This document shows positions 11,933 through 25,969 of a stretch of DNA of 39,804 bases, piece by piece. This stretch comes from Verrucomicrobiota bacterium. GTDB taxonomy: Bacteria > Verrucomicrobiota > Verrucomicrobiia > Limisphaerales > VHDF01. Numbering within the stretch: position 1 is the first letter of the stretch; each line of letters starts with the position of its first letter. The DNA lies in the NCBI GenBank assembly GCA_016871495.1, contig VHDF01000040.1, positions 1 through 39,804 on the forward strand, given 5' to 3'. The position numbers were made by a program, and so were the translations under genes. A model generated the notes under the pieces. The model had not been told where the DNA came from. It did not search any database and worked only from the letters and a program-made list of their open reading frames with translations.

Positions 11933-12100
11933 GAGGAAAGCGATTTAAGGATTGACCGTGCTTCCTCGGGAAGGACGGCGTTGTAAGGTGGCCCAATTCA
12001 CTCGAACTGGCGAGGAAAAACCCTTTTCGATCTTGAAGGGATTGTGAGTTGTGTTAACAGTGGAGCCTGTTCCAAGCGTCACGAAACGTCATTCCATGCT

Positions 12101-12913
12101 ATGAAACTCACTCGTTCCCGCCGTTCCAACGCTTTTACACTGATCGAGTTGCTGGTGGTCATCGCCATCATTGCGATTTTGGCCGGCATGTTGTTGCCCG
12201 CGCTTTCCAAGGCGAAATCCAAGGCCCAGATGACCAAGTGCCTGAACAATATGCGTCAGTTGGGCATCGCCACGGTGATGTATGTGACCGACAACCAGAA
12301 GTATCCGGGAACACTCTTCGTCAACGGAGGGTTCCGCTATGTTTGGCCTTTGCGTTTGTTCACTCAAATTGGAACCAATCGCGAAGTATTCCACTGCCCG
12401 TCTGCCCGTCCGGATTCGAGTTGGAACACGAATCTGAACAAGACCCTGGGCGCCAGTCACATGTACGGACCGGGGCGTGACCCGTGGGGCATCAGCGAAA
12501 CCTCCCTTTTCTCAATTGGTTATAACGATTGGGGTGCGTTCCCTGCCTTCTCGGACAAGGGTTTAGGGGGTGACGTGGACAATCTGCAGTATGAAGTGAA
12601 GGAATCGGCGGTGCGCAATCCGGCTGACATGTTGATGTTGGCCGATTCCAAGCCCGGGGATGGCAATAGTGCGAAACCAACGCGGGGCTCCTTCGATGGG
12701 AATGTGGATCCCACCACGGCTGGGGAATGGCCTTCCAACCGTCATAATCGCCGCACGGTTGTGATGTTTTGCGATGGCCACGCGGAGAGCGCTTTACGCA
12801 ATGAAGTGATTGACCCGAAAAATGACCGCTGGCACCGGCGGTGGAACAACGACAATTCCCTGGCGGGCACTTGGACGGTGGTTGCCGCGCAAGCGAATCG
12901 GATCGACCCGTAA
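12101..12913 (+). CDS. Type II secretion/pilin-like protein with N-terminal methylation motif
   Basis: A 270-residue protein starting [20 protein letters not shown], a prepilin leader ending before FTLIE and followed by a hydrophobic helix. Prepilin peptidase would cut before the Phe and methylate it. The rest ([12 protein letters not shown], then [16 protein letters not shown], and a final FCDGHAES block) is the pattern of the very abundant Planctomycetes/Verrucomicrobia pseudopilin-like proteins annotated as DUF1559 or H-X9-DG family: here H-x9-DG fits [12 protein letters not shown]. These are probably extracytoplasmic, and many paralogues exist per genome. A GTG at 12044 gives a longer frame but would place 19 implausible residues before the leader. 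No secretion genes are adjacent. Confidence 0.88.
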
Positions 12914-13559: not shown

Positions 13560-15056
13560 TTAAAGCACACCCAATTTGAGCGCGTGGTGAATGCGTCCCA
13601 GGAGGAATTCGGGGAAGAATCCCAGGACGAAAAGGACGACAACGACGAAAAGGACTGTGAGTCGCGCGCAGAGCGGGATTTCCAGCGGCGGCATATCCTC
13701 GCGAGTTGGCGCGGCAACGTAAGCCTGCTTGAGGACGAGCAGGTAGTAGTAGAGGGAGACACAACTCATCGCGATGGCGATGCTCACCAGCCACATCCAG
13801 CCCAATGGCTTCACCGCCGCAACGGCCGCGAAGAGATAAAACTTGCCAAAGAATCCCGCCAACGGCGGCACACCAGCCAGGGAAAGCAGCAACGCCATCA
13901 GACTGAACGCCAACACGGGTGAGCGTTTGGAAAGGCCGGTGAAAGCGTCGAAGCGGTCGTGCCCCGCCGCGTTCTCCACAAAACTCACGACGCCGAAGGC
14001 GCCGATCGAGGAGAATCCGTAGACGAGGCTGTAGAACACCACACTGGCGGCGCCTTGCTCGCCTTGCGCGAGGATTCCCAGCAATAAATATCCGCCATGC
14101 GAAACGGCCGAAAAAGCCAGCAGACGGCGCACGCTTGATTGTCCCAGGGCGGCGATGTTTCCCATCACCATCGACAGAGCGGCGACTCCGGCGAGGAGGG
14201 GCATCCAGCCCGAAACGAAATGACCCCAGGATCCGTCCCCGGCCGCTCCGGCCAGGCCAGAACCCATGAACTTGAGCATCAGCCAGAAACTGGCCACTTT
14301 GGATCCGGAAGCGATCAACGCGGCGGAAGCCGCGGGTGCGCCTTGATAAACATCGGGGGCCCACCAGTGGAACGGAACCACGGCGACCTTAAATCCGAAC
14401 CCTGCCACCACCATGGCCACGGCCACCCAGACCAAGGGATCGGGACTTCCGGCGGCAAGCTTGGCTCCCAGCGCTTTGAGGGTCATTTCTCCCGTGGCGC
14501 CATAGAGAAGACTGAAACCGTAAAGCAGGAAGGCCGCCGCGACGCCGCCGAACAGGAAGTATTTCAAACCGGCCTCGGTCGATTCGCGCTGGCCTTTGTT
14601 CAAGGCGGTGAGGATGTAGAGCGAGAGGCTCGCCAGTTCGACGCTCGCAAAAATCATGAGCAGATGCTCCGCGCTGGCCATGCACAGCATGCCCACCAAG
14701 GCGAGGGCGAGCACGGCGAAGTACTCACCGGCGTGTTCGGACCAATCGCCGGGCGCCATGAGGCAGGCCGAAAGCAGTCCCATCACGATCAAGCCTTGCT
14801 TCACGACAAGGCCCGTGGCGCCCAAGGACCACATGCCGCCCGGCGCGATGCCGGCGAACGGCCAGAGAAAAGTGGTGAGCAAAGCCAAAGCGCCGCCGGA
14901 AAGAAACGCCGCCAGCAGCACGCGGCGCCGGCGCGTGTCCTCCAGTTCGCGTGCCCAGACCAAATCGAGGAAGAGCACAAGCAACGACGTGGCGGTGAGG
15001 GCCAATTCCGGCAGGCAAGCCTTCGCGAGATCGAGATAGGCGGCGGAGTTCACCAT
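13560..15056 (-). CDS. nuoN: NADH-quinone oxidoreductase subunit N
   Basis: A 498-residue, ~14-helix antiporter-like subunit of the membrane arm of complex I. Key residues of the proton channel are present: Glu140 in the TM5 segment FASVELASLSLYIL, Lys223 in FKVAVVPFHWWAPDVYQG (TM7), Lys253 in the TM8 region, and a lysine in GFFGKFYLF (TM12). PFHWWAPDVYQG is specific for NuoN rather than L or M. It is the last gene of the operon; its ATG overlaps the end of the second nuoM by seven bases. Repeat R1 module A follows the stop directly. Confidence 0.95.
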   Translation of the reverse strand: MVNSAAYLDLAKACLPELALTATSLLVLFLDLVWARELEDTRRRRVLLAAFLSGGALALLTTFLWPFAGIAPGGMWSLGATGLVVKQGLIVMGLLSACLMAPGDWSEHAGEYFAVLALALVGMLCMASAEHLLMIFASVELASLSLYILTALNKGQRESTEAGLKYFLFGGVAAAFLLYGFSLLYGATGEMTLKALGAKLAAGSPDPLVWVAVAMVVAGFGFKVAVVPFHWWAPDVYQGAPAASAALIASGSKVASFWLMLKFMGSGLAGAAGDGSWGHFVSGWMPLLAGVAALSMVMGNIAALGQSSVRRLLAFSAVSHGGYLLLGILAQGEQGAASVVFYSLVYGFSSIGAFGVVSFVENAAGHDRFDAFTGLSKRSPVLAFSLMALLLSLAGVPPLAGFFGKFYLFAAVAAVKPLGWMWLVSIAIAMSCVSLYYYLLVLKQAYVAAPTREDMPPLEIPLCARLTVLFVVVVLFVLGFFPEFLLGRIHHALKLGVL

Positions 15057-16555
15057 CCCACCACCTTCCTGAGCCCGGCGAAAAACGCGCCGTCAAACGC
15101 CGATTGGATCCAGATCATCATCCAGGCGGGGTACAAACCGATCGCGATGCTGATCGCGAGCAAACTCACGGCGCCAAGCTTTTCAGCGCAACTGATCGGT
15201 TCCCACGGATCGTGAGGAGCCGCGCTTTCGGTTGTGCCAGGGGCGAGGACGCCCGCATCGGCTGCGAAGAACGCTCGCTGCATGGCGCGCAGCGTGTAGG
15301 CGGCGCCGACGACGATGCCGAGGCCCGCCGCGATGGCCATCCACGGAAAGCGTTTCCAAGCGCCCATGAGAACTTGCAGCTCGGCGACGAATCCGCTGAA
15401 GCCGGGCAGCCCCATGGAAGCGCAACCGGCGAGCACGAACGTGGCTGCCGCGAAAGGAAGTTCGCGCCCGAGGTTCAACTGTTTCAGCTCGTCGAGGTTT
15501 CGTGTGTGCGCCCGGTCATAAACCATGCGCCCGACCACGCCGAAGAGAAGTCCCGCGAGGATGCCGTGTGAAAACATCTGCAAAACCGCGCCGACCAATC
15601 CGGCGATGTTCATGCTGGCGAGTCCGAGCAGAACGAAGCCCATGTGGCTGACGCTGGAATAGCCGATGACGAACTTGAAATCCGATTGGGCGAGGGCGAC
15701 GAGAGCGCCCAGGACAATGCCGGCCACCGCCAGCCATCCGATGGATTCGTGCCAGATTTTGAGTCCTTGCGGGAACAAAGCCATGGAGACGCGCAACGCG
15801 CCGTAGGCCCCAAGCTTCATGACCACGCCCGCGAGCAGCATGGACGCCGCGGTGGGCGCCGCGACGTGACCGGTGGGCGCCCAGGTATGGAACGGCCACA
15901 GACCCGCCAGAATGGCGAAGCCGACGAAGGACACTGGAAACGCCCAGCGCTGGAAATCGGCGCTGAATCCGACCTTGGCCAGTTCCGGCAGGCTGAAGGT
16001 TTGGCTTCCCGACAGCACGTAGGCGGCCACCATCACCGCGAGCACCAGCGCGCTGCCGACGAAGGAATACAGGGCCAGTTTCATGGCGCCAAACTCGCGG
16101 TTGGTGGAGCCCCAAATGGCGATCAGGAAGTATTTGGGGATGATGGCGATCTCGTAAAAGACGAAGAGTTGGAACAGATCGAAGCTGAGGAAAACCCCGT
16201 GCACCCCGCCGATCAGCGCCAGGTAAAAGGCAAAGAATTCGCGCGGGCGCTTCTCGACGTTCCAGGAAAAGAGGATGCCGGCAACGGAGGCAATGCCTGT
16301 GAGCAGGACGAGGGTGAGGCTGATGCCATCGTAAGCGAGGTGGAAGTCGATCCCAAGCGAAGGGATCCACGCCCATTTCTGGATCGTGATCAATTCGCCG
16401 GCGGGCTTGAACTTCACCGCTTCCAGGAGGGCGATGCCAAGTCCCGTGAGCGAGCTGGCGAGGGCAACGCCACGTGCCCAGCGCGCGCCCGGCACGGGCA
16501 CGAACATGAGCACGAGCACTCCGAGGAACGCGCTATAGAGGGTCCAAGCCAGCAT
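15050..16555 (-). CDS. nuoM: Second NADH-quinone oxidoreductase subunit M (NuoM2), atypical
   Basis: From ATG 16555 the protein has 501 residues and the NuoM fold. Glu135 (FYEIAIIPKYFL) is the TM5 glutamate, Lys247 (GVVMKLGAYG) the TM8 lysine, and GFVAELQV carries the TM12 glutamate. However, the TM7 motif that should read like FAVKVPMFPFH reads FAILAGLWPFHTW: the conserved channel lysine is Leu216. In TM5, the position six after Glu135, normally Met, is Lys141. The gene is a paralogue, not a copy, of the upstream nuoM and probably represents a fourth proton pump. The frame is open to 16633 and a GTG at 16609 is an alternative start; ATG 16555 begins directly at the first membrane helix and clears the preceding stop at 16585. 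Confidence 0.9.
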   Translation of the reverse strand: MLAWTLYSAFLGVLVLMFVPVPGARWARGVALASSLTGLGIALLEAVKFKPAGELITIQKWAWIPSLGIDFHLAYDGISLTLVLLTGIASVAGILFSWNVEKRPREFFAFYLALIGGVHGVFLSFDLFQLFVFYEIAIIPKYFLIAIWGSTNREFGAMKLALYSFVGSALVLAVMVAAYVLSGSQTFSLPELAKVGFSADFQRWAFPVSFVGFAILAGLWPFHTWAPTGHVAAPTAASMLLAGVVMKLGAYGALRVSMALFPQGLKIWHESIGWLAVAGIVLGALVALAQSDFKFVIGYSSVSHMGFVLLGLASMNIAGLVGAVLQMFSHGILAGLLFGVVGRMVYDRAHTRNLDELKQLNLGRELPFAAATFVLAGCASMGLPGFSGFVAELQVLMGAWKRFPWMAIAAGLGIVVGAAYTLRAMQRAFFAADAGVLAPGTTESAAPHDPWEPISCAEKLGAVSLLAISIAIGLYPAWMMIWIQSAFDGAFFAGLRKVVGW

Positions 16556-16584
16556 GAGGAATTGGTGGGTCGATCGGATGAATT

Positions 16585-18147
16585 TCAGAATCTCAACCAA
16601 CCCACCCACTGCGTCACGGTCGCGTGGGTCCAATGCACAATGGCCTGAGGCCAGACGCCCAGCCCGAGCGTCAGCAACGTGGCCGGTGTCACCAACAACT
16701 TTTCTCCCAGCGTCAGGTCAGGCCAGTGGGTCCACCGTTCCGGAAGCGGACCCCAAAAAACCTTCTGCATGATGCCGAGCAGGAAAATGGCGGTCACGAG
16801 CAGGCCGAGTGTGGCCACGGCGGTAGGGGCCCAGGCGAGGGCGTAAGCGCCTTTGAAAATCAGGAATTCCCCCGCAAAACCGTTCAATCCCGGCAGTCCC
16901 AGCGACGCGAACATGGAGAGCCCCATCAGCCCGCAGAAGACGGGCGCCGCCGCCCTCAGGCCTCCGAATTCGTTCAGCCCGCGAAGTCCGCCGCTGCGCT
17001 GTTCCAGAAAACCCAGGAAACAGAACAAGGCGGAGGCGGTGATGCCGTGATTGAACATCTGCAATAAAACGCCGTTCAAAGCCGCCGCCTTTTCCGCGCT
17101 CCACAGTCCGCCGGTTTCCGTGACCTTCATGGCCGCGAACACCCCGAGCAGACAGTAGCCAAGGTGATTGACCGACGAGTAGGCCAGGGTGCGTTTGAGG
17201 TCCTTCTGGCCTAACGCGGCGAAAGCCGAGAGCACGATGGTGGCCACCGCCAGCCAGAGAAGAAGGTCCAGGGCCTCCCTCATTTGCTCCGGAAAGACAG
17301 GCAGGATCAGGCGCAGCAAACCATACACCCCGAGCTTTGACATCGCGCCCGTCAGAATCATGGTCACGCCGCTGGGAGCCTCGCTGTAGGCCGAGGGCAG
17401 CCAGCTGTGGAAAGGGAACATCGGCACTTTCACCGCGAATCCGAGCAACGCCATCCAGAAGACGCACTGCGCTAAGCCTTCCTGGGTCTTGAACGTTTCA
17501 AACCAGGCCAGGCGCACGGACAGCGCTGAAGCCAGTTCTCCAGAGCGCCCCTTCTCCGCCCATTCCAGAAAATTGAAAGTGCCCGTGGCGACAGACACCG
17601 CCAGAAATGCGAGCAGCATGGAAACACTGCCGGCCATGGCATAAACGAAGAACTGAAACGACGCCGGACCCCTCCCCTCCCCTCCCCAAAACTTGATCAG
17701 GAAATAAGCGGGGACCAAGCTGAGCTCCCAAAAGAGGAACCAGTGGAAAAAATCAAGGGCGGTAAAGGCTCCGAACAAGCCGGCCTCGAGCCAAAGGATC
17801 AACGCGAACATCAAAGGAACGCGGCGCGTCTCGTGACGGCAGACTGCCATCGCGAAGGGCACGACCAACGCGGTCAACCCGATCATGACCAAGCCCAGGC
17901 CGTCCAAACCCAGGTGATAATCCACCTTGATGGAAGGAATCCACGGCCACTTTTCGACAAACTGCATCTCCGCCTGGGCCGAATCAAATCGCCCGCCAAT
18001 CCAAGCGACCCATCCGGCGCATAGTCCGGCGGCCAGAAAAGCCAATCCCTTTGCTGCCTTGGCGGCGCGCGCGGGCAGGAAGGCCACGACCAAGCCTGCC
18101 ACCAGCGGGATGAAAATGAGGGCCGAGAGGGAACCGAAGGTGTTCAT
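16585..18147 (-). CDS. nuoM: NADH-quinone oxidoreductase subunit M (NuoM1), canonical
   Basis: 520 residues with the complete NuoM proton-channel signature: Glu141 (FWELSLVPAYFLI, TM5), Lys240 (FAVKVPMFPFHSWLP, TM7), Lys271 (AMSKLGVYGLLR, TM8) and the TM12 glutamate in GFAGEFLIFKG. It is an antiporter-like pump in the membrane arm of complex I. The ATG at 18147 overlaps the nuoL stop as ATGA, so the longer frame (to 18207) is rejected. The next gene downstream is a second, divergent nuoM, making L-M-M-N. Confidence 0.95.
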   Translation of the reverse strand: MNTFGSLSALIFIPLVAGLVVAFLPARAAKAAKGLAFLAAGLCAGWVAWIGGRFDSAQAEMQFVEKWPWIPSIKVDYHLGLDGLGLVMIGLTALVVPFAMAVCRHETRRVPLMFALILWLEAGLFGAFTALDFFHWFLFWELSLVPAYFLIKFWGGEGRGPASFQFFVYAMAGSVSMLLAFLAVSVATGTFNFLEWAEKGRSGELASALSVRLAWFETFKTQEGLAQCVFWMALLGFAVKVPMFPFHSWLPSAYSEAPSGVTMILTGAMSKLGVYGLLRLILPVFPEQMREALDLLLWLAVATIVLSAFAALGQKDLKRTLAYSSVNHLGYCLLGVFAAMKVTETGGLWSAEKAAALNGVLLQMFNHGITASALFCFLGFLEQRSGGLRGLNEFGGLRAAAPVFCGLMGLSMFASLGLPGLNGFAGEFLIFKGAYALAWAPTAVATLGLLVTAIFLLGIMQKVFWGPLPERWTHWPDLTLGEKLLVTPATLLTLGLGVWPQAIVHWTHATVTQWVGWLRF

Positions 18148-20219
18148 CGAGGTCCTCCTCCCCACGCCAGGATGACGATCAGGAACACAAGGGTCAGTCC
18201 CAGCCACCGCAAGTAGCGCTGGGTGTCACCGTTTTGAAGGGCGCCCGCCCCCAGGCCCAATCGCTTCACGCCCTCGCACGCCTTCTCGAAGCCGAAATTG
18301 ACGAATCCCTCGTCCGCCTGCTTTCCGATCCACGCCAGCAATCGCGTCAGCCCGCCGGTCAGACGGACCAATCCGCCCACGACCCAAACCTCCATCCACG
18401 CGGCCAACCCGGCCAGGGCGCGTTGCCAGGCGATGACGGTGGCTTCGTAGAGTTCATCGACAAAGAATCGACCGCGCATGGCTTTGAAGAGCCGGGGCCA
18501 GCGAGCTTCGAGAGGGTCGGTCGCGGTCTCGTGGAGGTCAGCCGCGCTGTAAAGTTTCCAACCCGCTCCGAATCCCGCCGCGACCAAAATCGCCGACAGC
18601 ACGATCAGACCGAGGGTGGCTCCGTGGAACAGCGCTCCAAAATCCAACTGCAATGGCTTGCCTTCGAGGAAAGAGGCGAACCATGGCCAGGCGGGCGTTC
18701 CCAATCCACTGAGAAGCAGGGCTCCGGCGGCGAGCAACACGAGAGGCACTGTCATGACCGCGGGGCTCTCATGCGGGGAGTGAACGGCGTGTGGCGCTTG
18801 ATCCCCGGAGCCGTGGCCGGAAGCGAAAGCGCCCCGAGGGTGTCCCGCGAACACATGCAACATCTGGCGTGTCATGTAAAACGCGGTGAGCAAGGCGCCC
18901 GCGATGCCGAGGACTAATGGCCCCTTGGATGCAGGCCAACTGAGCGCCGCGTGCAGGATTTCGTCCTTGCTCCAGAATCCCGAGAAAAAGATCGGCACGC
19001 CGCTGAGCGCCATCATTCCGATGGCGTAGGTGGCGAACGTCACCGGCATGAAGGCTCTCAATCCGCCCATTCGCCGAATGTCTTGTTCACCGCCACAGCC
19101 ATGAATGACCGATCCCGCGCCCAGGAAGAGCAACGCCTTGAAGAAGGCATGAGTGATGAGGTGGAACATGCCCACGGCCACGCCGCCCGCGCCCACCCCC
19201 ATGAACATGTAACCGAGCTGCGACACGGTCGAATAGGCGAGAATCCGTTTGATGTCGTTTTGGCCCACGGCGATGAGCGCCGCGAACACGGCGGTGATGG
19301 CGCCCACCCAGGTCACCACTTGCAGTGCCGTGGTCACGGAGGAAGGTCCGGCGGGCGTGGCAGCCAGGAGCGGATGCGCGCGCGCGATGAGGAATACTCC
19401 GGCCGCAACCATGGTCGCGGCATGGATCAGCGCGCTGACCGGAGTGGGGCCTTCCATCGCGTCCGGCAGCCAGACATGCAGAGGGACCTGGCCCGACTTT
19501 CCGACGGCCCCGCAGAAGAGCAGCAACCCGATGGCCGCGTTCAAGGTGAGTCCGCCGAGGGTGGTTTGAGCCGCCAAGGCCTCGAGCGCTCCCGCCTCGA
19601 GGCAGCCCTTGCCGTTATCGTAGCAGAGCAGGGTTCCGGTTTCGGCCTGCAGCCAGACCAATCCCAGGAAAAATCCCACGTCGCCGATGCGGGTGGTGAT
19701 GAACGCCTTCTTGGCGGCCGCCGCGGCGCTGGGCTTTTGAAACCAGAATCCGATCAGAAGATAGGACGCCAGCCCGACGACTTCCCAGCACATGAAGAGA
19801 AGGAGCAGGCTGTTCGAGATGACAAGCCCGAGCATCGCGGCGGCGAAGAGGGAGAGGAAACAAAAGAACCGCGCCGCGTTGTCGTCATGCGCCATGTAGC
19901 CCGAGCTGAAAATAAAGATCAGACAGCCCACGAACGTGATCATCACCAGCATGACCGCGGTCATGGGGTCCACGAGCAATCCCAGCTTGAGCGTGGCGCC
20001 GCCCATCGAGATCCAGTCGAAATTCCAATAGTCTCGAGGAACTCCGTTCGTGTTGGACTTGGACAGCAACAGATACAATTCCCGGCAGGATAGGAGGAAG
20101 CCGATCGCCATGGATCCGATGGCGAGAGCGCTGCTGAGCCGCCTGGCATTCCTCGGCAGCAGCGAGGCCAGACCTGCGGCGAGCAGGGGCAGGAGAGGGA
20201 TGAGGGCGAGGGTCGTCAT
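18144..20219 (-). CDS. nuoL: NADH-quinone oxidoreductase subunit L with extended lateral helix
   Basis: 691 residues against about 610 in E. coli. Pump residues are present: Glu146 (CWEVVGLASYLL), Lys241 (GAVGKSGQVPLHVWLPDAMEG), His266 and Lys418 (GFWSKDEIL). Residues about 585-665 form the C-terminal amphipathic region that in complex I becomes the long lateral helix HL. Between DELY (588-591) and the YLRW before the last membrane helix there are 77 residues, against about 44 in E. coli NuoL as I remember it, an excess of roughly 33. That matches the pattern described for complex I cassettes carrying a fourth pump subunit. A His-rich loop (about 468-486) separates late helices. ATGA overlaps exist on both sides, with nuoK and nuoM. 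Confidence 0.95.
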   Translation of the reverse strand: MTTLALIPLLPLLAAGLASLLPRNARRLSSALAIGSMAIGFLLSCRELYLLLSKSNTNGVPRDYWNFDWISMGGATLKLGLLVDPMTAVMLVMITFVGCLIFIFSSGYMAHDDNAARFFCFLSLFAAAMLGLVISNSLLLLFMCWEVVGLASYLLIGFWFQKPSAAAAAKKAFITTRIGDVGFFLGLVWLQAETGTLLCYDNGKGCLEAGALEALAAQTTLGGLTLNAAIGLLLFCGAVGKSGQVPLHVWLPDAMEGPTPVSALIHAATMVAAGVFLIARAHPLLAATPAGPSSVTTALQVVTWVGAITAVFAALIAVGQNDIKRILAYSTVSQLGYMFMGVGAGGVAVGMFHLITHAFFKALLFLGAGSVIHGCGGEQDIRRMGGLRAFMPVTFATYAIGMMALSGVPIFFSGFWSKDEILHAALSWPASKGPLVLGIAGALLTAFYMTRQMLHVFAGHPRGAFASGHGSGDQAPHAVHSPHESPAVMTVPLVLLAAGALLLSGLGTPAWPWFASFLEGKPLQLDFGALFHGATLGLIVLSAILVAAGFGAGWKLYSAADLHETATDPLEARWPRLFKAMRGRFFVDELYEATVIAWQRALAGLAAWMEVWVVGGLVRLTGGLTRLLAWIGKQADEGFVNFGFEKACEGVKRLGLGAGALQNGDTQRYLRWLGLTLVFLIVILAWGGGPR

Positions 20220-20527
20220 CCGCGCAGGTTTCGCACCTGTTCCAGTTGCGTGGTTTTGAACCGGCGGTGCAGGTGGATGATCAAGGCCAGGCCCACGGCT
20301 GCTTCCGCCGCCGCGATCGCCAGCGAAAACAGCACCATCAAGGGACCGTCGAGGGAAGCGGGGTTTTGATGAAACCGCCAGAACGCGATAAAATTGAGAT
20401 TGGCCGCGTTCAACATCAGTTCGATGCCGATCAGCACCATGATCGCGTTGCGGCGCGCCAGCGCTCCCGCGAGTCCCACCGAGAACAGGAGGGCTGAAAG
20501 CAGCAAGTAGTGGGACAAGGCCGTCAT
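20216..20527 (-). CDS. nuoK: NADH-quinone oxidoreductase subunit K
   Basis: 103 residues, three membrane helices, the usual NuoK size. The central glutamates are visible in MVLIGIELMLNAANLN (TM2) and in AIAAAEAAVGLALI (TM3), which take part in the membrane-arm proton path. RRNAIMVLIGIELMLNA is the family hallmark. Start and stop overlap nuoJ and nuoL by four bases each (ATGA), so translation is coupled. Confidence 0.96.
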   Translation of the reverse strand: MTALSHYLLLSALLFSVGLAGALARRNAIMVLIGIELMLNAANLNFIAFWRFHQNPASLDGPLMVLFSLAIAAAEAAVGLALIIHLHRRFKTTQLEQVRNLRG

Positions 20528-21045
20528 GGATTGGGACGGGGGTCGCCGGGGTTTTTGGGCCGGTCGTGCAGGGCCAAAACGGCCGCGCCGATCATGGCGG
20601 AAGTGAGCAGCAACGCGATCAGTTCGAGCGGGAGGACGTGGGTGGTCATCAAGGATTGCCCCAAGGCCGCAACGGGAAGCTCGCGTGGTCCCGGATCCGC
20701 CGCCTTGCCGACGGTGCTGGCGGAGAACGACGCGGCCAGAACCAGGAATACCATGGAGGCGATGCCGAGTCCGTGAGCCCAGGCTTTGTTGCCGCGAGGC
20801 TCCGCCTGCGTCTCACTGCTCTTCGTCAGGAGCATGGCGAATACCACGAGCACTGAGATCGCGCCCACATAGACCAGCATTTGGGAAAACGCGATGAATT
20901 GGGCGTCCAGTTGGAGATAAATCACCGCCAACCCGATCAACGTTCCCACCAGGCAAAGCGCGCAATGAATCAAGTTCCGCAGCGTCATGGCGGCGATGGC
21001 CAGGACGGCGGTCCAAAGCGCGGTGATCACGAAGGTGAGGCTCAT
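20524..21045 (-). CDS. nuoJ: NADH-quinone oxidoreductase subunit J
   Basis: 173 residues with five predicted membrane helices. The TM3 segment LVYVGAISVLVVFAMLL contains the conserved YVGAI(S/M)VLVVF motif, where the helix with a pi-bulge lies in complex I. The ATG at 21045 overlaps the nuoH stop as ATGA. The open frame extends upstream to 21177, but those 44 residues are Arg/Pro-rich and lie inside nuoH, so they are rejected. The gene overlaps nuoK by four bases. Confidence 0.95.
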   Translation of the reverse strand: MSLTFVITALWTAVLAIAAMTLRNLIHCALCLVGTLIGLAVIYLQLDAQFIAFSQMLVYVGAISVLVVFAMLLTKSSETQAEPRGNKAWAHGLGIASMVFLVLAASFSASTVGKAADPGPRELPVAALGQSLMTTHVLPLELIALLLTSAMIGAAVLALHDRPKNPGDPRPNP

Positions 21046-22214
21046 TCGACCCAGCGGTAGGTTCGGGGCGCCCAGCGCGCCCGCGCGGCCAGGCCCTGGC
21101 CCAGCAGGAAGTAGGGGGCCACGACCAGAGTGGCGGACACCAGCCAGCGCAGAGGGCCGGATCCGAGGTGATGCCAAAGGCCGGCGTTGACGATGTTGAT
21201 CAAGGAAAGGGGAAGCATGAGTTTCCAGGCAAAATTCATCAATTGATCAATCCGCAGCCGGGGAACGGTGCCGCGCACCCAGATGAAAAACAGCATCAGC
21301 ACCGTCAATTTGGCGAAGAACCACATCCAGGATGGAATCCACGCCAGGAACGACACCGGCGCCGTCCACCCCCCGAGGAAAAGCGTGATGGCCAGCGAGG
21401 TCATGGCGAAAAGTCCGAGATACTCGCCGAGGAAAAACAAAGCGAACTTGAATCCACTGTACTCGATCAAATGGCCCGCGACGATTTCGGATTCGCCTTC
21501 GGGAATGTCGAACGGGGAGCGGTTTGCCTCCGCCATGCCGGCGATGAGAAACAGCCAGAAGGCGGCGAAGCCCCACGGGGTGAACACATGCCATTGCGCC
21601 AGCCCGAAGGAATAGGCGTTTTGAGCTTCCACGATCTTCGAGGGCGACAACGTGCCGGTGAGCATCAGCACCGGGATCGTGGAAAGAATGAGCGGCAGTT
21701 CGTAGCTGATCATTTGCGCCAGCGCGCGCATCGCGCCCAACAACGCGTACTTGTTCCGGCTCGCCCAGCCGGCCATGAACACGGCCAACTCGGCGCCCGC
21801 CCCCACCGCGAAGAAATAAAGGACTCCCGCATCCAGATCCAGAGCGGTCATGTTGCGGCCGACCGGGATCACCGCCAGCGCGAGAATGGCCGGGATCACC
21901 ATCACCACCGGCGCGAGGGTGTAGACGAGGCGGTCCGCGGCTCGGGGCACCACGTTCTCCTTGAACACGGCTTTCAGCCCGTCCGCGGCGGGTTGGAGAA
22001 TGCCGAACGGGCCGACACGGTTCGGTCCCGGACGATTCTGGATGCGTCCGAGCAGTTTTCGCTCGACGAGCGTAGTGAGCGCAAACAAACCGGCAAAAGC
22101 CCCAACCAGCGGTCCAATGGATAACAGGATCGACGCCCAGCCGCGCAACGCGGCGGGAAGCACGCCCAGCGCGCTGTGCTTCAGGGTGACCCAAATTTGA
22201 TCCAACGCTTCCAT
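21042..22214 (-). CDS. nuoH: NADH-quinone oxidoreductase subunit H
   Basis: 390 residues with eight or more membrane helices. Signatures are ERKLLGRIQNRPGPNRVGPFG near the N-terminus, RALAQMISYELPL in the middle, and AEANRSPFDIPEGESEIVAG, the loop lining the quinone chamber. NuoH joins the peripheral arm to the membrane arm. The start lies three bases after the nuoI stop. Here nuoI precedes nuoH, a reversal of the common H-I order. Confidence 0.96.
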   Translation of the reverse strand: MEALDQIWVTLKHSALGVLPAALRGWASILLSIGPLVGAFAGLFALTTLVERKLLGRIQNRPGPNRVGPFGILQPAADGLKAVFKENVVPRAADRLVYTLAPVVMVIPAILALAVIPVGRNMTALDLDAGVLYFFAVGAGAELAVFMAGWASRNKYALLGAMRALAQMISYELPLILSTIPVLMLTGTLSPSKIVEAQNAYSFGLAQWHVFTPWGFAAFWLFLIAGMAEANRSPFDIPEGESEIVAGHLIEYSGFKFALFFLGEYLGLFAMTSLAITLFLGGWTAPVSFLAWIPSWMWFFAKLTVLMLFFIWVRGTVPRLRIDQLMNFAWKLMLPLSLINIVNAGLWHHLGSGPLRWLVSATLVVAPYFLLGQGLAARARWAPRTYRWVE

Positions 22215-22217
22215 CGG

Positions 22218-22967
22218 TCAGGGCTTGGGGGCGTCCGGGGCGGCCGGTGTCGGCGGTCTGGACGGAACCGAGGGTTGAGCCTGAGGCTTGGCGGCAGGAG
22301 CCGCGGCGGGTGGCGCGGGTGGCGGAACATCCGAAGGCTTGGCGGCGGGAACCGCGGTCGCGGCTGGCGCGGCGGCGGCGGCTTTCGCTTTGGCTTCCGC
22401 TGCTTTCGCCTTGGCCTCGGCATCCGCTTTGGCTTTGGCCTCCGCCTTCACCTTGTCCTCCGCAAGTTTGCGGTCCACCTCGGCGGCTTCTGCGGGGTGG
22501 ATCTTATTGTAATGGGCGTTGGATTTTGCGAGGTCGGTCTTGTGGAGGAGGAGTCCCTCGAATCGATCGGAGCGGCTCCATTCGAAGTCCTGGTCCATCT
22601 TGATGGCCTCGAACGGGCAAACTTCCACGCAAATCTGGCAGCTCATGCAGACCGAGATGTCGATGTCGAAAATCTTGGGCTGGAACTGGAGCTTGCCGAT
22701 GTAGTCCGGTTTTTTGACGGTGTCCTTGACGATGTAAATGCACTGGGGCGGACATTCCTTCTCGCAGATCTGGCAGGCGACGCAGCGCAGGCCGAGCATC
22801 GGGTCGTCACCGTCATGGACCAGAAACGGGAACTGACGCGCGTTTTCCTTCATGGGAAGGCGCTGTTCCGGATATTCCACGGTCACGAAGCGATCCGGGT
22901 CGGTGTAACTGCCGACGAGGTTGCGTGCCGTTTCGACCATGCCTTTGACGATGCCGGTTCCTAGCAT
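22218..22967 (-). CDS. nuoI: NADH-quinone oxidoreductase subunit I with Ala/Lys/Pro-rich tail
   Basis: 249 residues. The core carries two 4Fe-4S motifs, Cys62-65-68-72 (CVACQICEKECP) and Cys107-110-113-117 (CMSCQICVEVCP), which bind the clusters N6a and N6b that pass electrons toward NuoB. Typical NuoI proteins have about 160-180 residues and end near the position of residue 165 here. The remaining 85 residues are a Lys/Ala/Glu-rich helix-like stretch (about 165-200) followed by a Pro/Ala-rich disordered tail. The tail may bind another protein or be dispensable; nothing in the sequence decides this. Confidence 0.95.
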   Translation of the reverse strand: MLGTGIVKGMVETARNLVGSYTDPDRFVTVEYPEQRLPMKENARQFPFLVHDGDDPMLGLRCVACQICEKECPPQCIYIVKDTVKKPDYIGKLQFQPKIFDIDISVCMSCQICVEVCPFEAIKMDQDFEWSRSDRFEGLLLHKTDLAKSNAHYNKIHPAEAAEVDRKLAEDKVKAEAKAKADAEAKAKAAEAKAKAAAAAPAATAVPAAKPSDVPPPAPPAAAPAAKPQAQPSVPSRPPTPAAPDAPKP

Positions 22968-22989
22968 AGGTCCTCGCTTTCCAGACGCT

Positions 22990-24168
22990 TCATCGATCCA
23001 CTTCCCCGAGCACGATGTCCACGCTGCCCAAGATCACCACGACATCGGCGATGGTATGGCCCAGGCACATGTCCTCGAGGATGGTCAGGTTGATGAGGCT
23101 GGGCGGGCGAACGCGATAACGGTAGGGATTGGCCGAGCCGTCGCTGATGAGATAAAAACCGAGCTCGCCCTTCGGCGCCTCGATGCGTCCATAAGCCTCG
23201 CCCGCCTTGGGTTTGAAGGCGCGAAGTTTCGCCTTCGGATCGACAATCGGGCCGCCCGGGAGCTCTTGGATGGCCTGTTTGAGGATCTTGATCGATTCGC
23301 CCATTTCCAGCAGCCGGATCATGAGGCGGTCATACACGTCGCCCTGCGCGCCCAGAGGCACGCGGAATGGGAACCGCCCGTAAATTCCGTATGGATCCGT
23401 TTTGCGAAGGTCATAATCGACGCCCGAGGCGCGCAGCATGGGCCCCGTGATGCTGGCGTTGACCGCCAGGGCGGCGGGCAGGATGCCGACGCCTTGCGTG
23501 CGGGCCATGAGAATCTCGTTCCCGGTCAGCAACCGCTCGAACTCTTCAAGGAATCGGGGATAGCCATCGACCACCCGAGCCGCTTGTTCGATCCAGCCCG
23601 GGGGCAGGTCCACCCGGCAACCGCCGAAACGCATGTAGTTGCACATCATGCGCGCGCCGGTGAGGGCTTCGAACAGGTCGAGAATTTTCTCCCGCTCGCG
23701 GAAGGCGTACATGAGCGGAGTGCCGAGGGCGCCCATGTCCTGCGCCAGGAAACCGAGCAGGCAAGTGTGATTCAGGAGCCGGGTCAATTCCGCGGTGATG
23801 ATGCGGATGTATTCGGCGCGCTCGGGCACGTTCAAGCCGGCCAGTTTTTCCACCGCCAGCGCGTAAGCCCAGTTGTTCGTGATCGAGCAGAAATAGTCGA
23901 GCCGGTCGGTGTAAGGCATCGACCCCAAATAGGTCGTGGCTTCCGCGATTTTTTCGTGGTTGCGATGGAGATAGCCGAACACCGGCTTCAGTTTGACGAT
24001 GCGTTCCCCGTCCAGCACCACGTCCATGCGAAACACGCCATGGGTGGACGGATGCTGCGGTCCCATGGAAACCTCCAGAAACTCGTTCCCAAGCCCGGAA
24101 TCATCGTGAGCGCGGGGCGAAAGTCGCGCGCGGGTGTCGGCGGGCACCGTGGGAGAATGGACACTCAC
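22990..24168 (-). CDS. nuoD: NADH-quinone oxidoreductase subunit D
   Basis: 392 residues, the 49-kDa subunit of the peripheral arm that forms the quinone-binding site with NuoB. Motifs include [15 protein letters not shown] near residue 35, [26 protein letters not shown] and the C-terminal [21 protein letters not shown]. The quinone-site histidine lies in GPQHPSTHG. The ATG at 24168 overlaps the nuoC stop as ATGA. C and D are separate genes, not fused as in E. coli. Confidence 0.96.
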
Positions 24169-24815
24169 GCGGTGCCTCCCTGAGTGCCCCCGTCGGCGGG
24201 ATAATGCGCTTTGGCCTTTTCGAGCACCTCATCGTGGGGCGTGGGTTCGTATTCGTAGTCGTCGGGCTCGACGAAATCCTTGCGCATCGGATGATGCCGG
24301 TAACCCTCCCACATGAGCAGCCGCCGCAAGTCCGGATGTCCGTCGAAGACAATGCCGTAAAGGTCGTAAATCTCCCTCTCTTGAAACTCGGCACCCCTCC
24401 ACACCGGGGTCAGGGATGGGAGATGCACTCCTTGCATTCGATCCGCCGTGCGAACGCGCAGGATCACGGGGCCTTGCTTCAAGGCCATGGAATAAAGGTG
24501 ATAGACCGCCTCAAGGCAACCCGGCTTGCGTTCTTCGAGGGTCTCCTCGACCTCTTGTTCCACACCGTTGATCTGCTTCTTCACTTTGACCTTCTGCTTG
24601 GTCACCGTGTCGGGCCAATCCACTCCCGTCGCGTTCGAGGCGTAATCGAGCCGCAGTCGGGGATCGTCACGCAGGAATTCGGCCACTTCCCGGGCTTTCT
24701 CGCGTCCCACCCGCAAAGAACGCTGCTGGCAGGGGGCATCGTTCGGCACGATCTCGACCGCGGCTCCGGTGACGGAGGCTTCGACGCGAGCCTTGATCTC
24801 TTCCAGCGATTCCAT
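24165..24815 (-). CDS. nuoC: NADH-quinone oxidoreductase subunit C
   Basis: 216 residues. The family signature is the C-terminal [23 protein letters not shown], followed by [17 protein letters not shown] Lys/Glu-rich insertion ([21 protein letters not shown], about residues 75-97) lengthens the N-terminal domain compared with many homologues. A TTG at 24830 would add five residues; the ATG at 24815 is preferred because it is a standard start and begins the first helix ([10 protein letters not shown]). It overlaps nuoD by four bases. Confidence 0.94.
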
Positions 24816-24837
24816 GCGGGAGCCGTGCAAATGAAAC

Positions 24838-25455
24838 TCAATCCTCCCGGACCATGGTGGGCGGACGCCACACCTCGGGATTGCTCGGGGGAGTCAGGTC
24901 GTCCGGTCCGCAGACCGGAATCGGGAATTCACTCGGGGCGTTGGGGTCCAAATGGCGGGGGCGACCGGGGCCCGTGAAGGTCTCTTTCGAGATTTTCTCT
25001 TGAAGGGTGATGAGCGCGTGAAGCAGCGCCTCGGGACGGGGCGGGCACCCGGGGATGTGCACATCCACGGGGATGAAGCGGTCAATGCCTTTCAAGACGT
25101 TGTATCCCTGCTTGAAGGGGCCTCCGGAGATCGCGCAGGCGCCCATGGCGATGACATATTTCGGTTCGGACATCTGATTGTAGAGTCGAACCACTTGGGG
25201 GGCCATTTTCTTGGTCACCGTGCCGGCGACAATCATCAGATCCGATTGCCGTGGGGAATTGCGAAAGACCTCCGAACCGAAGCGGGAGAGATCGAAGCGG
25301 GCCATGGCGGTGGCGATCATTTCAATCGCGCAGCAGGCTAGGCCGAACTGCATGGGCCAAAGGGAATTCTTGCGGCCCCAGTTGTAGAGGTCCTGGAACC
25401 CGGTGACAACCACCCCTTGCTTGCTGAGCTCGTTGCGAAGTCCCTCGTCGATCAT
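24838..25455 (-). CDS. nuoB: NADH-quinone oxidoreductase subunit B
   Basis: 205 residues. The ligands of the terminal N2 4Fe-4S cluster are visible: tandem Cys41-Cys42 (GLACCAIEM), Cys107 (MGACAISGG) and Cys137 ([10 protein letters not shown]). NuoB delivers electrons to quinone. The C-terminal 45 residues ([19 protein letters not shown] and beyond) form a longer tail than in E. coli. The gap to nuoA is 24 bases. Confidence 0.96.
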
Positions 25456-25479
25456 GCGATGCTGGTGCCGGTCCGGAAT

Positions 25480-25857
25480 CTATTTCCAGGCCAGCAACCC
25501 CTTTCTCCATGCCCAGACCAGTCCTTCAACCAACAGCAACAGAAAGAAAAGCATGGCGGCAAACGCGCCCAGAGGAAGTCCTTTGAAGGCGGCGGCGAAA
25601 GGCAGCAGAAAAAGAGTCTCCACGTCGAAAACCAGGAAAATCAAAGCGTAAAGGTAATACTCGGAACGAAACTGCACCCAGGCGTCTCCCTTCGACTCCA
25701 GGCCGCATTCGTAGATGGCATTTTTGTGCGGACCCGGTTTGGCGGGGCACATGAACTTCGCCCACGACCAGGCCGCCAAGAGGGGGCCGATCGGGAAGAG
25801 GATCGCAACCAACAGCAGGACGGCCAGAAATTCGTTGGTAGAATAGGAACCTGTCAT
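25480..25857 (-). CDS. nuoA: NADH-quinone oxidoreductase subunit A
   Basis: 125 residues, three membrane helices. Family signatures are KNAIYECGLESKGDAWVQFR and YYLYALIFLVFDVETLFLLP. The loop with the conserved Cys (YECGLE) contacts the quinone site. First gene of the operon. The ATG at 25857 is preferred over a GTG six bases upstream. An upstream gene in the same direction ends 112 bp away, so the nuo promoter probably lies in 25858-25969; I could not identify it. Confidence 0.95.
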   Translation of the reverse strand: MTGSYSTNEFLAVLLLVAILFPIGPLLAAWSWAKFMCPAKPGPHKNAIYECGLESKGDAWVQFRSEYYLYALIFLVFDVETLFLLPFAAAFKGLPLGAFAAMLFFLLLLVEGLVWAWRKGLLAWK

Positions 25858-25969
25858 GGGCACTCGCCGGCCGAGCTTTGATCGACTTGGGCGCGGGAAA
25901 ATTACCCTCCCCGGCTTTCGATGGTCAAGGAACCGGGACCCTTAGAAGCAAATCTAACCCGTAATGCAA

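Follow-up and report, generated by a model that had tools for sequence, protein, structure and literature searches.

The window, that is, the whole stretch of 39,804 nucleotides of verrucomicrobial DNA that was analysed, encodes on its minus strand a compact nuo operon with the gene order nuoA-B-C-D-I-H-J-K-L-M1-M2-N (positions 13560 to 25863; Table 1); no nuoE, nuoF or nuoG is found within this operon. The operon matches 2M complex I, an already published kind of complex in which a second NuoM brings the number of antiporter-like subunits to four (Chadwick et al. 2018, as cited in PMC12342949, PMC9040806 and PMC7117926): two nuoM genes lie side by side between nuoL and nuoN, nuoC is separate from nuoD, and the lateral helix of NuoL is longer. 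It presumably encodes a four-pump complex I of this kind. It has been suggested that a fifth proton is moved by the extra NuoM of such complexes (PMC12342949, PMC7117926, PMC9040806). The window also encodes, on the plus strand (12044-12913), a protein whose N-terminal methylation motif is like that of type IV pilins.

Table 1. Genes of the nuo operon, with positions in the window, characteristic residues and the evidence for each assignment.
Gene	Position	Strand	Product and residues	Evidence
nuoN	13560..15056	-	498 aa; Glu140, Lys223, Lys253, Lys405	TIGR01770, 356.8 bits (cut-off 332.6)
nuoM2	15050..16555	-	501 aa; fourth antiporter-like subunit	translation, TIGR01972, AF2 model
nuoM1	16585..18147	-	520 aa, canonical; Glu141, Ala147, Lys240, Lys271, Glu427	TIGR01972, 447.6 bits
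nuoL	18144..20219	-	691 aa; Glu146, Lys241, His266, Lys418/Asp419	NF005141, 617 bits
nuoK	20216..20527	-		position; similar to nuoK at related loci
nuoJ	20524..21177	-	start is that of the open frame as listed	position; similar to nuoJ at related loci
nuoH	21042..22214	-		NF004741, 344 bits
nuoI	22218..22967	-	two CxxCxxCxxxCP motifs in the translation	TIGR01971, 76.5 bits (below the cut-off of 113)
nuoD	22990..24168	-		NF004739, 438 bits (above the cut-off)
nuoC	24165..24830	-	separate from nuoD	TIGR01961, 107 bits (below the cut-off of 122)
nuoB	24838..25455	-		NF011394, 335 bits
nuoA	25480..25863	-		NF005839, 103 bits (below the cut-off of 163); position

The arrangement of two nuoM genes in one operon between nuoL and nuoN (13560-20219 in the window) is shared by the related loci: NuoM2 follows NuoM1 at every locus with a readable neighbour (151 places, overlapping loci included), and NuoN comes after NuoM2 in 122 places. 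The lateral helix of the NuoL encoded here extends 99 residues past the DELYE motif, compared with 70-71 in the second complex I of the same genome, and so is about 28 aa longer; the corresponding length is 96-105 residues in nearly all 2M loci and 69-75 in 20 of the 23 loci whose one NuoM is without the lysine of transmembrane helix 7 (TM7). The NuoL lateral helix thus has the extra stretch of about 26 aa that is associated with 2M complexes, although this feature is non-specific: many Acidobacteriota operons with a single NuoM have 96-98 residues after DELYE, which makes helix length a weaker argument for a 2M arm, and single-NuoM operons of Manganitrophaceae likewise encode a long lateral helix (PMC9040806). 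The long helix can be considered supportive of the 2M identity but not specific for it. In the acidobacterial single-NuoM loci L249-L252, the helix spans 97-98 residues past DELYE (versus about 72), and some of these NuoL contain a repeated VDGLVNG motif in the lateral helix which looks like an internal duplication. Ferredoxin is the proposed electron donor for the 2M complexes of Nitrospira.

The nuoM2 gene is an open frame (minus strand, translated from 16555 to 15050) whose product opens with MLAWTLYSAFLG and matches the family model for NADH-quinone oxidoreductase subunit M over residues 2-487 (TIGR01972, 431.6 bits, cut-off 263.8). The AlphaFold (AF2) model of this protein (pLDDT 96.1, pTM 0.95) has the antiporter fold common to Mrp and aligns best with NuoM of Paracoccus denitrificans in a structure comparison (TM-score 0.91). 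Both the family model and the fold identify the protein as a NuoM, yet a non-canonical one. Direct numbering of the translation identifies the TM5 glutamate (Glu135, within FVFYEIAIIPKYF), the TM8 lysine (Lys247, within LAGVVMKLG) and the TM12 glutamate (Glu392) of canonical NuoM, whereas the TM7 lysine is replaced by Leu216 (within GFAILAGLWPFH) where NuoM1 has Lys240. In addition, there is a lysine in TM5, Lys141, six residues after Glu135. The translation bears out the original prediction on each of these points; that prediction was also right in assigning Met or Ala to position 141 of canonical NuoM, with Met found in the E. coli type and Ala in nearly all NuoM1. Position 241, on TM8, is occupied by Leu. 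The lysines of NuoM2 between residues 100 and 300 are located at 102, 141, 159, 194, 247, 266 and 294, and TM7, which is predicted as a helix from 199 to 216 followed by a break, contains none of them. The possibility that the alignment had missed another lysine in TM7 is therefore rejected. The key residues are all kept in NuoM1, NuoL and NuoN, so that NuoM2 is the sole departure among the four antiporter-like subunits. The NuoM1 of these 2M operons has fixed changes of its own (Ser at 246, a basic residue at 146, and Tyr rather than His at 230) and is in this respect a non-standard NuoM as well.

These features of NuoM2 are highly conserved. A comparison of 123 distinct NuoM2, all from Verrucomicrobiota or Acidobacteriota, shows that Glu135, Pro140, Lys141, residue 142, His223, His230, Lys247 and Glu392 are fixed, as is Leu241; residue 216 is Leu in all but one sequence, which has Met. 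Cultured acidobacteria, namely Granulicella and Paracidobacterium (L040, L043), are among the carriers of a NuoM2 with these residues. In an earlier alignment of 109 NuoM2, His304 and His330 are invariant. Synonymous codons at the key sites are mixed freely (Lys141 is encoded by AAG in 69 sequences and by AAA in 54, and five leucine codons are used for Leu216), which indicates that the amino acids themselves are under selection. Given the nearly uniform state in 123 distinct sequences with varied codons, the combination of Leu216 and Lys141 is attributable neither to chance nor to sequencing error. Fixation of the channel residues is also unlike what is expected of a decaying spacer or a subunit without a channel. 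The alternative put forward along with the original prediction, that NuoM2 is a non-pumping structural spacer or adaptor lengthening the membrane arm, takes account of the loss of a residue whose mutation abolishes the function of NuoM in E. coli (PMC3046159). Nevertheless, it appears improbable because a spacer would have no need for fixed Glu135, Lys247, TM11 histidines and Glu392, and because there are complete complex I operons whose one NuoM is a close relative lacking this lysine as well (see below).

The loss of the TM7 lysine extends well beyond NuoM2. In a survey of 367 distinct NuoM, drawn from Verrucomicrobiota, Acidobacteriota and three Bacteroidota records only, 167 proteins contain Leu or Met in place of this lysine. 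Lys141 is present in 123 of these and His241 in 43; no protein has both, and the remaining one has His245. Conversely, none of the 200 NuoM that have the TM7 lysine contains a basic residue at 141 or 241. The expectation that loss of the TM7 lysine and gain of the TM5 lysine always occur together thus fails, with 44 of the 167 proteins showing the loss without the gain (43 with His241 and one with His245). No relative was found on viral contigs, and a plasmid collection yielded only three records of the branch lacking the TM7 lysine, all from Bacteroidota. The protein with His245 on TM8 (FLAGVHMKLG; loci L015 and L254, genome G012) is a single NuoM without Lys141 or His241 and represents a third location of the base.

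One of the proteins without the TM7 lysine is encoded in the source genome itself. Contig C12 (locus L001, 15000-34000) carries a second complex I, of the 14-subunit type, with nuoE, nuoF, nuoG and a single NuoM whose TM7 (GFGILVSLWPFH / GFGILVSLWPFHTW) is devoid of lysine; residue 141 of this protein is Thr, residue 241 is His, and TM8 has two adjacent lysines (HAGVLKKFG). Complexes of the C12 type are found in many genomes of the phylum. In Bacteroides, Phocaeicola and Prevotella, the TM7 of NuoM reads GFGVLGALFPFH, and residues 141 and 241 are Met and His, respectively. In C12, Prevotella, Bacteroides, G012 and another genome, G243, the protein lacking the TM7 lysine is the sole NuoM of a complete operon, which supports the view that the altered subunits are functional. 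The operon of G243 (L114, L146 and L255) is of the Bacteroidota type, although the genome is verrucomicrobial, and looks horizontally acquired; the NuoL encoded there has about 40 extra C-terminal residues.

In a phylogenetic tree of NuoM that was built without the columns under study, all proteins lacking the TM7 lysine form a single clade (bootstrap 100, SH-aLRT 99). Nested inside it, NuoM2 forms one clade (100/99) that is the sister group of the Bacteroidota-type NuoM with moderate support (91/86). A second tree, of 95 rows with NuoL and NuoN as the outgroup, gives the same picture. The possibility that NuoM2 is a duplicate of NuoM1 is rejected, given that the two belong to separate clades and NuoM2 groups with the single-copy NuoM of the Bacteroidota type; the fourth pump of these 2M complexes originates from another NuoM lineage and is not a copy of NuoM1. 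The tree requires one change at the TM7 site, one at position 141 and three at position 241, and puts the TM7 loss before the gain of the TM5 lysine, with the latter replacing the TM8 histidine at the base of NuoM2. The most economical history would include one loss of the TM7 lysine accompanied by the gain of His241, with subsequent replacement of His241 by Lys141 in NuoM2 and by His245 in L015. The TM7 loss is one event in this sample, so that a test by independent pairs yields a single pair and the coupling between loss and gain is without independent replication.

The TM7 lysine has been termed invariant and essential (PMC7419157), and mechanisms of complex I rely on it as such (PMC7419157, PMC10212512; mutants in PMC3046159). 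In canonical models, this lysine and the TM5 glutamate are a gate that tunes the TM8 lysine (PMC7419157, PMC11496545); an alternative model makes the pair an element of the proton relay (PMC10212512), and it has also been argued that the proton paths run along TM8 and TM12, with the TM7/TM5 pair serving electrostatic tuning only (PMC7419157). Neither loss nor relocation of the TM7 lysine was found described in the papers covered by our literature search, in which the original 2018 work on 2M complex I is represented by later papers that cite it.

The two positions at which the alternative bases occur have counterparts in NuoL. The alignment between the TM7 lysine and TM8 is ungapped: 25 residues after Leu216 of NuoM2 is residue 241, and the same distance separates the TM7 lysine of NuoL from its conserved histidine in TM8 (Lys241/His266 for the NuoL of the window, Lys229/His254 for that of E. 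coli). The position six residues after the TM5 glutamate is Lys141 in NuoM2 and aligns with Ser150 of E. coli NuoL. In a 2026 simulation, His254 of NuoL, when facing the Lys-Glu pair, forms a hydrogen bond with Ser150, and Lys229 is connected with the histidine along a path of two waters and Ser150 (PMC13358369). By homology with this contact, residues 141 and 241 are likely partners between the Lys-Glu pair and TM8, which would explain why one of these positions is neutral whenever the other is basic. Relative to the central axis, both positions are cytoplasmic, given that TM5 ends and TM8 starts in the cytoplasm; in E. coli NuoM, the cytoplasmic end of TM5 has been placed in the K173 region (PMC3046159).

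The reading that we favour, with moderate confidence, is that NuoM2 serves a 2M complex as its fourth antiporter-like subunit and belongs to an old branch of NuoM without the TM7 lysine, in which the base has moved to the TM5/TM8 site and which still relays or pumps a proton. The site would lie between TM5 and TM8, cytoplasmic to the central axis; the base is His241 in the single-copy members of the branch, on TM8 at the position of the NuoL/MrpA histidine (His245 in one sequence), and Lys141 on TM5 in NuoM2. Lys141 might replace the TM7 lysine as a displaced partner of Glu135, whereas the single-copy relatives would pair His241 with the same glutamate; the Glu135/Lys141 gate could then feed or tune Lys247, the TM11 histidines and Glu392. 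A direct pair of Glu135 and Lys141 is not assured, considering that residue i+6 of an ideal helix is turned by about 120 degrees from the TM7-facing glutamate. The case for relocation is built on which residues occur at these sites, how well they are conserved, the fact that they exclude each other, and the tree, from which we infer the contact, the gating and the pumping. With respect to the relocated Glu-Lys pair of the original prediction, a relocated base best fits the wider family, but the two changes are not one event, as indicated by the tree and by the 44 exceptions among the 167 proteins.

Alternatively, the TM7 lysine could be dispensable in this branch, in which case the bases at 141 and 241 would be clade signatures related to packing or to proton uptake from the N side along TM8, and NuoM2 would pump via Lys247 and Glu392 without a Glu/Lys gate. 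The single loss on the tree is compatible with this interpretation, given that co-occurrence may reflect shared ancestry, and so are the proton paths along TM8 and TM12 (PMC7419157), the residues of which are intact in NuoM2. This alternative nevertheless seems rather unlikely: fixation of Glu135 in all 123 NuoM2 is hard to explain if its partner is lost, and His241 was lost twice within the clade, in NuoM2 and in L015, each time with another base present (Lys141 and His245, respectively). It is also conceivable that the branch carries a different ion, such as Na+, with the changed site, which lies beside the axis of an antiporter fold common to Mrp, tuning cation selectivity. Such a change of substrate appears highly improbable because a scan of the NuoM2 alignment columns revealed no cation site and no acidic residue that is newly conserved, and because the proton-type pattern (Glu135, Lys247, Glu392) is kept.

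Extending the relocated base to the whole branch leads to a broader proposal, to which we would assign slightly less than an even chance: the base of the Glu/Lys pair in one NuoM lineage might have moved from the TM7 break to the contact between TM5 and TM8, that is, the site of the histidine switch in NuoL, as a TM8 histidine in the single-copy subunits and a TM5 lysine in the extra pump, so that the TM7 lysine would be one of several solutions. A large family of subunits that seem to work lost this lysine once and has a base gained nearby in every member, which amounts to a natural mutation experiment on the pump. The clade that lives without the TM7 lysine, which includes gut Bacteroidota that can be grown, has the base at two or three other sites and makes the disputed role of the Glu/Lys pair testable by comparison and by simple mutants.

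Compared with known systems, the operon is like the published 2M complex I in its second nuoM, the nuoL-M1-M2-N order, the separate nuoC and nuoD, and the longer lateral helix of NuoL. NuoM2 shares the fold, the 14 TM helices, and the TM5 glutamate, TM8 lysine and TM12 glutamate with canonical NuoM, such as those of E. coli and NuoM1 of the same operon, which differ from it in having the TM7 lysine and non-basic residues at 141 and 241. In E. coli NuoM the TM7 lysine is Lys234, and positions 141 and 241 correspond to Met150 and Leu259, the latter 25 residues after Lys234. The single NuoM of C12 and its relatives resembles NuoM2 in the absence of the TM7 lysine but has Thr141, His241 and the double lysine of TM8, and is encoded in operons with nuoE, nuoF and nuoG and a short NuoL lateral helix. 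The nearest branch, the single-copy NuoM of Bacteroides and Prevotella (L166-L168), has Leu216, Glu135, Lys247 and Glu392 as in NuoM2, with Met141 and His241 in place of Lys and Leu and one NuoM per operon. The histidine switch of NuoL and MrpA (His254/Ser150 in E. coli NuoL) involves the same two positions, 241 and 141, beside the Lys-Glu pair; NuoL, however, keeps the TM7 lysine, whereas NuoM2, with Leu241 and Lys141, has no histidine switch, the characteristic His241 being found in the 43 single-copy relatives.
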